From positions 1-53,769 of the forward strand of contig NZ_JACJST010000033.1 in the NCBI RefSeq assembly GCF_014698305.1: DNA of 53,769 nt. The letters run 5' to 3'. The notes beneath the pieces were generated by a model, which had not been told where the DNA came from, did no database searches, and saw nothing but the letters and a program-made list of their open reading frames with translations. Shown piece by piece: positions 5,891 through 43,365 of the stretch (positions are counted from its first letter, which is position 1; each line of letters opens with the position of its first letter). The DNA comes from Anabaena lutea FACHB-196 (GTDB lineage: Bacteria; Cyanobacteriota; Cyanobacteriia; Cyanobacteriales; Nostocaceae). The position numbers and the translations under genes are program-made.

Positions 5891-6156
5891 AGGGTAATTG
5901 GGAAAAAGGTAATTGGTCAGAATTTTTACTAGTACACAACGGCTTAACTCAACCAACCATTAAAAATTTCCCAAAAAGCTGGTGTCATCTGCTTTTTTAA
6001 TTTTTAATTCCGAGAAAGCGGTACTAGTCTCCAATCACCAGTCCCCAGTTAACCCTTCATTGGCTTTTGCTCAAAGTTGAGAAAAAAAGTTTAGAACTTA
6101 GAGTGTCTTTTTTTACTGGAGATTCTATTAAAAACCAACGGTACGCGAAAAATAAT

Positions 6157-39073: not shown

Positions 39074-39460
<387 letters not shown>

Positions 39461-39502
39461 GACACGCTGTCGTTTGACACAAGCAACTGCTCAACTCACA
39501 AT
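39461..39502 (+). promoter_or_regulatory. petJ promoter with palindromic operator
   Basis: GACA-CGC-TGTC (39461-39471) is a palindrome followed by GTTTGACAC (39472-39480). The TTGACA inside this (39474-39479) can serve as the -35 box, with CACAAT (39497-39502) as a weak -10 box at 17 bp. An operator touching the -35 box suits repression. In Synechocystis, petJ is repressed by the BlaI-type regulator PetR when copper is present; that this site is a PetR box is inference. A near copy lies before the TonB receptor gene at 41221. Confidence 0.55.
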
Positions 39503-39551
39503 TATAAGGGAGATTTGACAGAATTAGCCGTTGTTGTAGAGAGAACACGAC

Positions 39552-39875
39552 ATGAAAAAGATAATTTCAGTATTACTGTTAGGCATAGCTATCTTCACTT
39601 TTGCCTTCAGTAGTCCAGCTTTGGCAGATGGAGCTACAGTATTTAGTGCTAACTGTGCTTCTTGTCACGCAGGTGGTAAGAATTTGGTTAACGCTGCTAA
39701 AAGCCTCAAGAAGGCGGATTTGGAAAAGTACGATATGTACTCAGCAGAGGCAATTATTGCCCAAGTTACAAACGGTAAAGGTGCTATGCCTGCTTTCAAG
39801 GGTCGTTTAAAACCAGCCGAGATTGACGATGTAGCTGCTTACGTATTTGAACAAGCTGGGAAAGATTGGAAGTAA
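39552..39875 (+). CDS. petJ: Cytochrome c6 (c553)
   Basis: Soluble thylakoid-lumen electron carrier between cytochrome b6f and photosystem I or the oxidase; it replaces plastocyanin when copper is scarce. The 107-residue precursor has a signal peptide (1 to about 25, ending SSPALADG). The mature part has the haem site [10 protein letters not shown], and the axial Met in [27 protein letters not shown] is the usual C terminus. Its promoter carries a palindrome suited to repressor control, and a hairpin terminator follows at 39907, so it is monocistronic. Confidence 0.97.
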
Positions 39876-39906
39876 TCCCATATCTAAGGTGATTAACTAA
39901 TAATTT

Positions 39907-39932
39907 GCGGGGCTATTTGTCCCGCTAATTTT
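39907..39932 (+). terminator. Rho-independent terminator of petJ
   Basis: GCGGG (39907-39911) and CCCGC (39921-39925), extendable inward, followed by TAATTTTTG. It lies 31 bp after the petJ stop. Confidence 0.65.
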
Positions 39933-39963
39933 TGTAATTCTGAAATTATCAAAGGAGATGTGT

Positions 39964-40881
39964 ATGACTTATTTCTGGCGATTAATTTTCAGTGTAATTA
40001 TAGCTTTTACTCTAGCTTTTTTAACCCCAAGTGCAAATTCATTACTTCTTGCGAACACCCAAATTCCCGCCCGTGATTTTTTAAAATTGGGTGTAAACCA
40101 AATGCAGCAAGGTAATTACCAATCAGCAATTGAGAATTTGACTTTGGCGATTCAAATGCAGAGTAACTTGAGTGCAGCTTATAGCGATCGCTGTTTGGCA
40201 TATCTACAGCTACAAGATTACCATGCTGCGATCGCAGATTGTACCCAAGCACTAAATTTAGCACCTGATAACTCCCAAGCTTATCTCAACCGGGGACTAG
40301 CACACTACAGACAAGGGAATTATCCCAATGCTATTGCTGATTACAATCAAGTAATTGCCCTAACACCAGCTAATTTTCGCGCTCACTACAACCGAGGGAT
40401 AGCCTTTGCAGAGGAAGGTAATTACTCCCAAGCGATCATTGATTATAACCTGGCATTAACTCAAATTTCCCCCACTAACACGCTACTGTTAGCAGATATA
40501 TACAATGACAGAGGTTTAGCTAATTTAGAGTTGCAAAATCTAGCAGCGGCTATGAAGGATTTTAATTTAGCAATTCACTTCAACGCTGAAGATGATAGAG
40601 CATATTTTAACCGAGCTTGTGCCTGTGAGCGTAGCGGTGATATCCTGGGAGCAATGCATGACTTTTCCCAAGTTATCAGGCTGAAACCCAGTAATGCACT
40701 AGCTTACGTTAATCGGGGAGTAGCCAACTATAACTTAGGGTATTATCAAAGAGCGATCGCTGATTTACAAAAAGCATCAGCATACTTTGAACAGCAAAAA
40801 GAAACATTGGCCTCCAAGAAAACCTTATATTTGCTGAAAACTGTTCAACAAGAAATCTCATCAGTCATGGAAATTGCTTAA
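39964..40881 (+). CDS. Exported tetratricopeptide-repeat protein
   Basis: A 305-residue TPR protein. The N-terminal hydrophobic segment (about 3-24) looks like a signal peptide or anchor, so the repeats probably face the lumen or periplasm. About six TPR units follow (from about 38 to 285), with typical W/Y-G-Y-A-F-P spacing, for example LKLGVNQMQQGNYQSAIENL and AYLNRGLAHYRQGNYPNAIA. AAAGGAG at 39951-39957 touches the upstream ATG at 39958 but is six bases from ATG 39964, so the latter is chosen. TPRs mediate protein binding; the partner is unknown. Confidence 0.88.
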   Translation: MTYFWRLIFSVIIAFTLAFLTPSANSLLLANTQIPARDFLKLGVNQMQQGNYQSAIENLTLAIQMQSNLSAAYSDRCLAYLQLQDYHAAIADCTQALNLAPDNSQAYLNRGLAHYRQGNYPNAIADYNQVIALTPANFRAHYNRGIAFAEEGNYSQAIIDYNLALTQISPTNTLLLADIYNDRGLANLELQNLAAAMKDFNLAIHFNAEDDRAYFNRACACERSGDILGAMHDFSQVIRLKPSNALAYVNRGVANYNLGYYQRAIADLQKASAYFEQQKETLASKKTLYLLKTVQQEISSVMEIA

Positions 40882-40899
40882 TTTTTGAAATATACGTAG

Positions 40900-40916
40900 G
40901 GTGGGCATTGCCCACC
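40900..40916. repeat. GGTGGGC hairpin repeat
   Basis: GGTGGGC and GCCCACC form a 7-bp stem with a 3-base loop, flanked by CGTAG on both sides. It is a dispersed hairpin of the same group as at 26.0 and 48.6 kb and may terminate the TPR gene transcript. Confidence 0.65.
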
Positions 40917-40942
40917 GTAGCAATGGTGAGACTTAAAATTTT

Positions 40943-41146
40943 ATGGCTACGCCACGCAAGCTATCAAATATCATTTACGATTCCTATAGTAGTCAAACTT
41001 GCTCTAATTGTGGTGAGAAAAAATCATCGCTGTCACTATCTCAACGGGTATTCCAATGTGATGACTGCGATATTGAAGTGACAATTCTCGAACCCATACC
41101 CCAGGAAAGTATCGCTGTCACTATCTCAACGGGTATTCCAATGTGA
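40943..41146 (+). pseudogene. TnpB zinc-ribbon fragment of a decayed IS element
   Basis: The 67-residue frame encodes only the treble-clef zinc ribbon of a TnpB/IS891-type transposase: YSSQTCSNCGEKKSSLSLSQ then VFQCDDC. The RuvC-III DRDxNAA that normally follows is missing. After the second CxxC pair the frame runs into an 85-bp tandem duplication, and the protein no longer resembles anything. The sequence type differs from the larger TnpB remnant at 8.6 kb, so these are two separate old insertions. Confidence 0.75.
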
Positions 41147-41195
41147 TGACTGCGATATTGAAGTGACAATTCTCGAACCCATACCCCAGGAAAGT
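41026..41195. repeat. Exact 85-bp tandem duplication
   Basis: 41026-41110 and 41111-41195 are identical end to end, starting ATCGCTGTCACTATCTCAAC. The duplication covers the TnpB zinc-ribbon remnant and ends 25 bp before the TonB receptor operator. Perfect identity implies a recent event. Confidence 0.95.
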
Positions 41196-41220
41196 TCTGA
41201 GTATTGATGAATTCAAGTAT

Positions 41221-41263
41221 GACAGCTTGTCTTTTGACAGTATTTGTATTAACAGTAGAGAAT
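41221..41263 (+). promoter_or_regulatory. TonB-receptor promoter with petJ-like operator
   Basis: GACA-GCT-TGTC (41221-41231) followed by TTTTGACAG (41232-41240) matches the petJ operator as GACANNNTGTCNTTTGACA. TTGACA (41234-41239) can be the -35 box, and GAGAAT (41258-41263) a weak -10 box 18 bp away. The site lies 65 bp before the receptor ATG, compared with 72 bp for petJ. Confidence 0.5.
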
Positions 41264-41304: not shown

Positions 41305-43365
41305 ATGAATAAGAATTTGTTTTTCCTGCCAGTTTCTTTATTGAGCTTACTGGTAGCATTTCCTGCTGTAGCTTCTGAAAATGAAAATCAAAAAACCTCA
41401 ATAAATTCAGATATTCCTAGTTTAAGTGAAATTGAACTACCCGCCACAAATGCTGAATTATTAACTCAACAACCAGCATCAACTGAAGTTAAGGAAGACA
41501 CTCAGCCAGAAGCAGATATATCCATAGAAACAATTGGACAAAAAGACCCTTTACCTGAATCTACTCCTACTTATGTAATTGAAAAAGAAGAAATTCAAAA
41601 ACAGGGTGCAACCAGCGTTGCTGATATTTTGAAAAGAATGCCAGGTTTTGCTATCAATGATGTCGGACATGGTGCAGATATTCACACAGGTACATATTAC
41701 CGGGGTGCATCAATTAACCAATCTGTATTTCTGATTAATGGTAGACCAATTAATAGTAATATCAATACATATCATGGTGCAACTGACTTAAATAGTATTC
41801 CTATAGAATCTATAGAAAGAGTTGAGTTGTATAGTGGGGCTGCTTCCTCTTTATATGGTTCATCGGCTTTTGGGGGAGTTGTTAACATCATTACTAAAGA
41901 AGGTGATGGTAAACCTAAATTAAATGCTAGTGCAGAATTTGGCTCATTGAATTTAAATAATCAACAGATAACTTATGGTGGTTCATCTGGTGCAGTCAAG
42001 TACAACTTTAGCTTTGAAAGATACTTTATCGATAACCGTTATCGTGTACCTGTAGGAGCAGCAAACCGTGATGCTGAAGGATTTTTATCCAATGCAGATA
42101 CAGCTACAAGCACTTATTTTGGCAGCATTGGTGTAGATTTAGATCCCAAAAATTCGGTCAATTTAGATGTAACTGCACTAAGTAGTCGTCGAGGTTTAAT
42201 TTATTTCGGTTTTCCATTACAAAAAGACCGACTTGATCATGATGGTTTAAATATTGGTTTATCTTGGAAAACTCGACTTGGTAAGGGAGAAAACTCTAAT
42301 TTAACAACTTCTATTGGTTATAACCAAGATTACTTTAGCACTTATGGTCCGACCGCAGGCACATTTTACCGCACCGGAATTTTAGATACTCAACAAATTA
42401 CAGCCAGAGTAGATCATGATTGGAAACTTGGCCCTAATAATCAGTTGCGTTGGGGTTTAGATTTAAAAAATACTAACTTAAATGGGGATGTTTTTAGTAC
42501 AGCACCTAATAGAATTGCCAACAATGAAAAAGAAAATCGCAGCCTCTTAAATACAGCTTTATTTGCTGTCAATACTTGGAATATTAGCGATGTTTTTCAA
42601 GTTGATTTAGGGCTAAGACAAAGCTTTGATGAGCAGTTTGGTAATTATCTTAACCCTAGTTTTGGCTTACGTTATGCTGTGAATCCAGCCGTTGCTGTGC
42701 GTGGAAGTTGGGCCGGAGCGCAGCGCAATCCAGGTTTAGATCAGTTATATGTTTATGATACTGTTCATGCTTGGCAACCAAACCCAGATTTAAAACCAGA
42801 AACTGGTTCTGCTTGGACTGCGGGAGTGGATGTGAGATTGTCTAATAATTTGCTGGGACAGTTTACATATTTTGGCAGTAGTTTAGATAATCGGTTAGGA
42901 GTAATTAGTGGAAGATGGGAAAATATAGGCTTAGTCGATACCAATGGTTTAGAAGCAGCATTGCAATTAAAAATTGCTCGTGAATGGTCAACTTTTCTCA
43001 ACTACACTTATACAGATGCCCAAATTAAAACTGGAACTGAAAAAGGATTACAATTAGGGTTAATTCCTTACTCTTTACTTCAAGCTGGAATTGGTTATGA
43101 AAAGGCGGGATGGCAGGCTAATATGTATGTGACTTACAATAGTGGTTCCCGTCGCTCTGTTTTCACCAATACTGCTGGTGGTGATAAAAATACAGACTTC
43201 TCAGCGTCTTTTGTAAATTTAGATTTGAGTGGTCGAATTCCTGTCAGTAAAAATTTGGGGTTGATTATTTATTTGGAAAATTTACTCGGTGAGCAATATG
43301 AGCGAGTTAATCGTATTTATAGTCCTGGGTTTACTTTTCGAGTAGGTTTAACTGCAAATATCTAA
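41305..43365 (+). CDS. TonB-dependent outer-membrane receptor
   Basis: TonB-dependent transporter of 686 residues. The signal peptide is 1 to about 22 (LLSLLVAFPAVAS), and ETIGQKDPLPE may hold the TonB box region. The plug domain (about 85-190) has ADILKRMPGFAIND, YRGASINQSVFLING and YGSSAFGGVVNIITKEG. A 22-strand-type barrel ends in YSPGFTFRVGLTANI with the required aromatic terminal pattern. There is no full AMIN domain between signal and plug. ATG 41305 is chosen over the open start at 41227. These importers usually carry iron chelates, cobalamin or copper. A shared operator with petJ suggests a metal-limitation role. A strong terminator follows. Confidence 0.93.
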   Translation: MNKNLFFLPVSLLSLLVAFPAVASENENQKTSINSDIPSLSEIELPATNAELLTQQPASTEVKEDTQPEADISIETIGQKDPLPESTPTYVIEKEEIQKQGATSVADILKRMPGFAINDVGHGADIHTGTYYRGASINQSVFLINGRPINSNINTYHGATDLNSIPIESIERVELYSGAASSLYGSSAFGGVVNIITKEGDGKPKLNASAEFGSLNLNNQQITYGGSSGAVKYNFSFERYFIDNRYRVPVGAANRDAEGFLSNADTATSTYFGSIGVDLDPKNSVNLDVTALSSRRGLIYFGFPLQKDRLDHDGLNIGLSWKTRLGKGENSNLTTSIGYNQDYFSTYGPTAGTFYRTGILDTQQITARVDHDWKLGPNNQLRWGLDLKNTNLNGDVFSTAPNRIANNEKENRSLLNTALFAVNTWNISDVFQVDLGLRQSFDEQFGNYLNPSFGLRYAVNPAVAVRGSWAGAQRNPGLDQLYVYDTVHAWQPNPDLKPETGSAWTAGVDVRLSNNLLGQFTYFGSSLDNRLGVISGRWENIGLVDTNGLEAALQLKIAREWSTFLNYTYTDAQIKTGTEKGLQLGLIPYSLLQAGIGYEKAGWQANMYVTYNSGSRRSVFTNTAGGDKNTDFSASFVNLDLSGRIPVSKNLGLIIYLENLLGEQYERVNRIYSPGFTFRVGLTANI

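Follow-up and report, generated by a model that had tools for sequence, protein, structure and literature searches.

Why does the gene for a TonB-dependent receptor in Anabaena lutea FACHB-196 share a near-identical upstream element with petJ, the gene for cytochrome c6, and what does this imply for the regulation and substrate of the receptor? The original prediction was that both genes belong to a copper- or metal-limitation regulon. We analyzed the locus within a 53,769-nt stretch of contig NZ_JACJST010000033.1 (the window) and across related genomes. The data lead us to think that, at low copper, PetR probably turns on a set of copper-acquisition genes to which this receptor belongs.

Three genes of the forward strand are concerned. 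The first, petJ (39552..39875, +), encodes a 107-aa cytochrome c6 that scores 151.7 bits against NCBIfam model NF045930 (Cytc6PetJCyano; cut-off 135). Next comes a gene for a 307-aa TPR-repeat protein (39958..40881, +), and then the receptor gene (41305..43365, +), whose 686-aa product has the Pfam domains Plug and TonB_dep_Rec_b-barrel and is a predicted importer of copper or a copper chelate. The open reading frame listing opens the receptor frame earlier, at TTG 41227. The order petJ–TPR–receptor was found again at locus L042, there in one row with petR.

Two matching sites upstream of petJ and the receptor gene

The core sites, at 39461–39479 (GACACGCTGTCGTTTGACA) before petJ and 41221–41239 (GACAGCTTGTCTTTTGACA) before the receptor gene, both match GACANNNTGTCNTTTGACA with zero mismatches, exactly where the original prediction had placed them. 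Taken together with the preceding AAGTTT and AAGTAT, respectively, they form putative petJ-type PetR operators at 39455..39479 (+) and 41215..41239 (+). The gap from operator end to start codon is 72 bp for petJ (ATG 39552) and 65 bp for the receptor (ATG 41305), reproducing the predicted 65–72 bp. When two mismatches were allowed, these were the only two matches to GACANNNTGTCNTTTGACA in the window; across 100 shuffled versions, matches averaged 0.20, and one version had at least two. Sites before six gene families (n = 76, of which 69 non-redundant) yield a consensus, AAGTWTGACANNNTGTCTTTTGACA, that is wider than the pattern originally proposed.

Both operators end in TTGACA (39474–39479, the final six bases of the petJ operator, and 41234–41239 for the receptor), a candidate –35 box in each case. 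Among receptor orthologues (32 non-redundant sequences), an A/T-rich hexamer resembling AANAAT lies 18 bp 3' of TTGACA. In building this logo, loci without an exact site were given the sequence of a neighbouring locus, and those copies drop out of the non-redundant 32. The hexamer at 18 bp fits an overlap of the operator with the –35 box, which is plausible. In the window, the hexamer at the same distance is GAGAAT (41258..41263, +), which by eye resembles a –10 element weakly. Thus, of the promoter overlap originally suggested, TTGACA is present at both sites and the spacing recurs among orthologues, with a weak –10 in the window itself.

Several other elements lie nearby. A further TTTGACAG at 39514–39521, in the interval that separates the petJ operator from the start codon, could be a half-site or a promoter element. 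A short tandem repeat of CTGACTC occupies 39232–39265, 5' of petJ; repeats of this kind are common in Nostocales. The TPR and receptor genes are separated by sequence in which a direct repeat of ∼84 bp with a period of 85 spans 41026–41109 and 41111–41194, and the frame at 40944–41220 resembles what we take, on sight, to be the broken zinc-ribbon end of a transposase (SQRVFQCDDCDIEVT). From the repeat and the transposase-like remnant, it seems that remnants of mobile elements were inserted ahead of the receptor promoter.

Distribution of the operator across genomes

Because petJ and the receptor gene are near each other, a local duplication would have been easy, and the likeness of the two sites might reflect a recent copy of one promoter, or chance. 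In the 6.06-Mb genome, GACANNNTGTCNTTTGACA is matched exactly at three places and with one mismatch at a fourth (contig 12), and the reversed pattern at none. The exact matches precede petJ, the window receptor and a gene for a DsbD_2/ferric-reductase-like membrane protein. This third site sits on another contig (contig 25), 101 bp 5' of the gene for a 409-residue protein with DsbD_2 and Ferric_reduct domains, which is followed by a gene for a 213-residue protein without a family. Within the order, 77 of 195 genomes contain an exact match, against one match in total for the reversed control. A longer form, TGACANNNTGTCTTTTGACA, was found with at most one mismatch in 129 of the 195 (control, 7 matches). 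In a draw of genomes from the phylum, 41 of 244 match exactly and the control gave none; two of these 41, G419 and G545, lie outside the order.

Conservation was also assessed at orthologous genes collected without reference to the motif. Receptor homologues were gathered by protein profile, and the best 80 of 185 relatives, nearly all from Nostocales genera, were scanned from 350 bp before the gene to 60 bp inside it. The exact site is present in 69 of the 80 and a site with at most one mismatch in 77, mostly 58–79 bp before the start, and the best match of the reversed control has at least four mismatches at every locus. The operator is absent from L197 and L200, and L177 has two mismatches. 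For petJ, we used 38 genes identified by protein similarity in these loci, each with at least 120 bp of upstream sequence. None lacks a site: two are exact, 33 have one mismatch and three have two, against at least four in the control; the final base is mostly G or T. At L066 and L067, two exact operators lie 73 bp apart before petJ, and the same spacing repeats in G562 and G564, two more genomes of that genus. The site is thus conserved upstream of both genes in Nostocales (38/38 for petJ within two mismatches; 77/80 for the receptor within one), as the original prediction called for. The genome survey, together with the conservation at receptor orthologues and petJ, refutes chance or local copying, to which we assign a negligible probability.

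PetR and the plastocyanin/cytochrome c6 switch

Under copper shortage, Synechocystis PetR acts as a repressor of petE and an activator of petJ (PMC7896320, PMC13421787); PetP is a membrane protease, activated by copper, that eliminates PetR once the metal is available (PMC7896320, PMC13421787, PMC12292863). In the PetRP pair of Synechocystis sp. PCC 6803, PetR is of the BlaI/CopY type and PetP is a BlaR-type protease; here, too, a PetR homologue is encoded, next to a candidate PetP-like protease. PetR, a 139-aa protein encoded on contig 37, is the single match to PF03965 (BlaI/CopY family) in the genome (E = 1.7e-30, over the cut-off), and a gene for a 277-aa PetP-like metalloprotease starts immediately after petR. 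The latter scores 25.1 bits against PF05569 (cut-off 31) and 26.1 bits against PF01435 (cut-off 20.3).

Plastocyanin genes allowed the two known PetR targets to be compared. The petE promoter of this genome carries TATGACAGATTGTCATA. In a sample of 31 petE loci (this genome plus the best 30 of a 60-genome search), the core GACANNNTGTC occurs within 300 bp of petE in 29, starting 69–82 bp upstream, and the reversed control in none of the 31. The original prediction had suggested a search at petE, and there the core is conserved. All 29 cores form the palindrome TAYGACANNNTGTCRTA, without a third half-site. Comparison of petE and petJ sites therefore shows a common core, with the third half-site as the difference, and in the genomes examined this core is common to both PetRP targets. 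A search of the A. lutea genome itself for the palindrome, allowing one mismatch, found one real place versus six control places, so its uniqueness there says little and the weight falls on the 31-locus survey.

The location and distribution of petR point in the same direction. The gene adjoins operator-bearing petJ in L014, L042, L052 and L063, operator-bearing receptor genes in L108, L110 and L111, operator-bearing PepSY_TM genes in L091, L092 and L114, and an operator-bearing DsbD_2 gene in L109. PetR was found in 125 of 129 operator-bearing genomes versus 26 of 66 operator-less genomes (Fisher p = 1.6e-19, with kinship ignored), where the genome lists were transcribed by hand and an operator was counted at one mismatch or fewer. 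Thus, 26 of the 151 PetR-bearing genomes have no operator at this threshold. The four operator-bearing genomes without a PetR match are G066, which is 71% complete, and G127, G167 and G180, which belong to one genus.

These four genomes bear on whether a regulator other than PetR reads the sites, such that the sharing between petE and petJ would reflect overlapping control. They favour that idea, and PetR binding at these sites is a prediction. But PF03965 is matched only once in this genome, petR both adjoins and co-occurs with operator-bearing genes, and both known PetR targets, petE and petJ, carry the core. Control by another regulator is consequently very unlikely.

We therefore return to PetR. 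In our model, the two window sites would bind PetR, the BlaI/CopY-type protein that governs the choice between plastocyanin and cytochrome c6. With copper present, the PetP protease would destroy PetR. With copper short, PetR would persist, repress petE from the plain palindrome TAYGACANNNTGTCRTA, and activate petJ-type promoters, in which the GACANNNTGTC core is followed immediately by a third half-site, TTTTGACA, with the –35 box. Since the receptor gene carries a petJ-type site, it is expected to be expressed at low copper alongside cytochrome c6. On the sequence evidence, the window receptor very likely belongs to a PetR copper-limitation regulon. This agrees with the original placement of petJ and the receptor in one such regulon, which is strongly supported by site conservation, the petE palindrome, the neighbourhood and co-occurrence of petR, and the majority of those operator-bearing genes that could be identified. 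One part of the proposal fails: petJ was said to be derepressed via PetR, a term that does not fit, since Synechocystis PetR activates petJ at low copper (PMC7896320, PMC13421787).

The receptor and the genes that share its operator

The window receptor scores over the cut-off for PF07715 (plug) and PF00593 (barrel); the genome holds one other PF00593 match. None of the curated receptor families shown reached its cut-off, the B12-receptor and CirA models scoring best, and identity as a B12 receptor or a named siderophore receptor was rejected on this ground. The top NCBIfam match is TIGR01779 (B12 receptor), at 155.7 bits. In a profile search of the PDB, the nearest solved relatives are CirA and BtuB, with catecholate and haem receptors also present. 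The receptor thus resembles BtuB both in its best curated match and among its best solved relatives. Its cargo could then be a complex of some other metal (vitamin B12/cobalt, zinc or nickel), with copper control being indirect. An operator-bearing gene of the All3515 type, a family of zinc acquisition, in one genome also fits such a role. However, the B12 score is far under the cut-off of 599.7, and we regard this reading as quite improbable.

Two known copper receptors were also compared. CrtA (PDB 9rvq) was last of the 40 PDB profile matches (E = 3e-6, in the plug region alone), and OprC did not appear in this list of 40 (threshold E = 1e-5). The receptor was accordingly not assigned by sequence to OprC, for lack of a PDB profile match, nor to the CrtA cluster, given the weak, last-place plug match. 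In an alignment of 44 receptor homologues, three His residues (127, 157 and 488) are invariant and two more (312 and 371) occur in 43 of the sequences; no Cys or Met is conserved at 85% or more. A structure model (pTM 0.74, mean pLDDT 71.1) serves for the general fold alone. From our reading of its strand pattern, His 312 and 488 would lie on the extracellular side and His 127 and 157 in the plug. When the model was searched with Foldseek, OprC appeared from rank 36 of the 50 matches listed, with B12 and siderophore receptors higher.

CrtA (BfrG) of Bordetella (PDB 9RVQ/9RVX) is described as a copper-responsive TonB-dependent transporter of chelated Cu(II) (PMC12914433). CrtA and the window receptor both have conserved His and no conserved Cys or Met, and PepSY_TM and TonB/ExbB genes are associated both with CrtA and with the present operator set (PMC12914433). 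CrtA differs in having two conserved His and CruR-type control, versus five His and predicted PetR-type control for the window receptor. Directly behind the window receptor, the translations of open reading frames that we read include no PepSY_TM gene; operator-bearing PepSY_TM genes occur elsewhere. By analogy, the window receptor may work like CrtA without belonging to its cluster. The copper site of OprC, the Pseudomonas aeruginosa copper receptor, uses Cys, Met and His. OprC has the same overall fold as the window receptor, an unspecific likeness, and its Cys/Met/His ligands differ from a family without conserved Cys or Met. IacT (All4026), the Anabaena sp. PCC 7120 receptor that the original prediction offered as a precedent, has been linked to both iron and copper and classed as ViuA-like, and its transcript was seen at copper limitation and not at iron limitation (PMC2771747). 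The window receptor differs from this ViuA-like class (PMC2771747) in being closest to the B12-receptor and CirA models, although below their cut-offs. A published iacT primer (PMC10878165) had no match in 217 family genomes, a set that therefore probably does not include PCC 7120.

To see which genes share the operator, we merged identical contexts of the exact matches into 105 distinct ones. The first genes are petJ (33), DsbD_2 proteins (15), receptors (13), small His-rich secreted proteins (8), GLTT-repeat proteins (7), PepSY_TM proteins (5), ThiF-like proteins (3), the family-less DsbD_2 partner (2), and TPR, MbnP, All3515-type and porin genes (1 each). Four of the 13 receptors were assigned by script and nine, with N-terminal offsets, by hand from open reading frame clusters. 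The gene behind L043 and the ThiF-like genes behind L089/L090 were presumptively named on sight. In the remaining 15 contexts no gene class is clear: some lie at contig ends or in ambiguous places, and the others are isolated cases with an ExbB-like gene, a P-type ATPase gene 608 bp off, DUF2231 genes and a non-ribosomal peptide synthetase (NRPS) gene.

Several of these associations extend further downstream. At L054 2702–4804 (G056), MbnP and MbnH genes, both over their cut-offs, lie directly 3' of a petJ-type operator, and NCBIfam describes MbnP as a copper-binding protein. TonB-like genes are found 3' of the receptor in L046 and L110. A cydA-like gene, coding for a copper-free terminal oxidase, comes after the DsbD_2 pair in L057 and L058. 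The motif HCxGMC is invariant in 13 aligned DsbD_2 members; a structure model of the DsbD_2 protein was poor (mean pLDDT 63.7) and was set aside.

Some further loci were recorded in passing. The GLTT-repeat protein, behind operators of L033, L045, L095, L096 and L101, is small, and in most of the copies inspected its tail is rich in His. Slr0601 and Slr0602 are PetRP-controlled. In L109, an operator at 6021 on the reverse strand lies ∼400 bp before two DUF2231 genes, which are followed by genes for cytochrome c oxidase, a copper enzyme. At L233 (G152, contig 37), two operators 100 bp apart (13054 and 13154; one exact, one with a single mismatch) precede a gene for an NRPS at least 2227 aa long. 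An MFS gene lies downstream of it, and a gene on the opposite strand presumably resembles the L089 porin, judging on sight from its first residues. L233 is possibly a PetR-controlled metallophore cluster.

The same gene list bears on a second substrate. The receptor could be under PetR and yet import iron, as a siderophore or haem complex, paying for the switch from plastocyanin to a cytochrome c6 that contains haem iron. Catecholate and haem receptors are among its nearest solved relatives, and iron systems, too, make use of PepSY_TM and Ferric_reduct domains. Elsewhere, moreover, the one operator-bearing porin gene matches a model named iron uptake porin, and two of the 13 receptors are FhuA-type (22% identity to the window receptor), with an RhtX-like siderophore transporter gene 3' of the FhuA-type receptor in L112 (the neighbour in L055 falls in the same cluster). 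On the other hand, MbnP/MbnH and the small His-rich secreted proteins of the regulon suit copper better, and the receptor falls under every siderophore and haem cut-off shown. Iron import is an unlikely reading. For the window receptor, we infer that copper is the likely substrate; together with the products of the other operator-bearing genes, it would most likely move copper through the outer membrane, either as free metal or as a chelate.

The regulator is a known one, and its predicted regulon is wider and differently aimed than described. According to a commentary, the Synechocystis PetRP regulon consists of four proteins, plastocyanin and cytochrome c6 included (PMC7896320), and a 2023 review states that PetRP has no downstream copper-homeostasis response (PMC10141476). 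Unlike in that regulon, the sites found here also precede the receptor and DsbD_2 genes and, elsewhere, further metal genes. No publication that places a receptor in the PetR regulon turned up in the literature searched; the primary PetRP paper lay outside that search and may already show the box or some of these targets. A broader view, for which we see the chances as evenly balanced, is that PetRP is the order's main copper-starvation system, that the architecture around the core sets the sign (the palindrome represses, a fused third half-site activates), and that the activated set is a copper-scavenging pathway. Such a pathway would comprise the outer-membrane receptor, periplasmic His-rich and MbnP/MbnH proteins, and, in the inner membrane, PepSY_TM and DsbD_2/ferric-reductase fusion proteins that would reduce Cu(II); in one genome, a non-ribosomal copper chelator is possibly part of it.

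How copper passes the cyanobacterial outer membrane is an unsettled question; the route given in a 2025 review is diffusion through porin-like proteins (PMC12292863). If PetR controls the receptor, then a regulated, specific entry route for copper exists, and the precision of the operator allows the whole regulon to be listed computationally. The PetRP commentary calls it unknown how one PetR represses petE yet activates petJ (PMC7896320). Control of the receptor by PetR would offer a simple rule for both.
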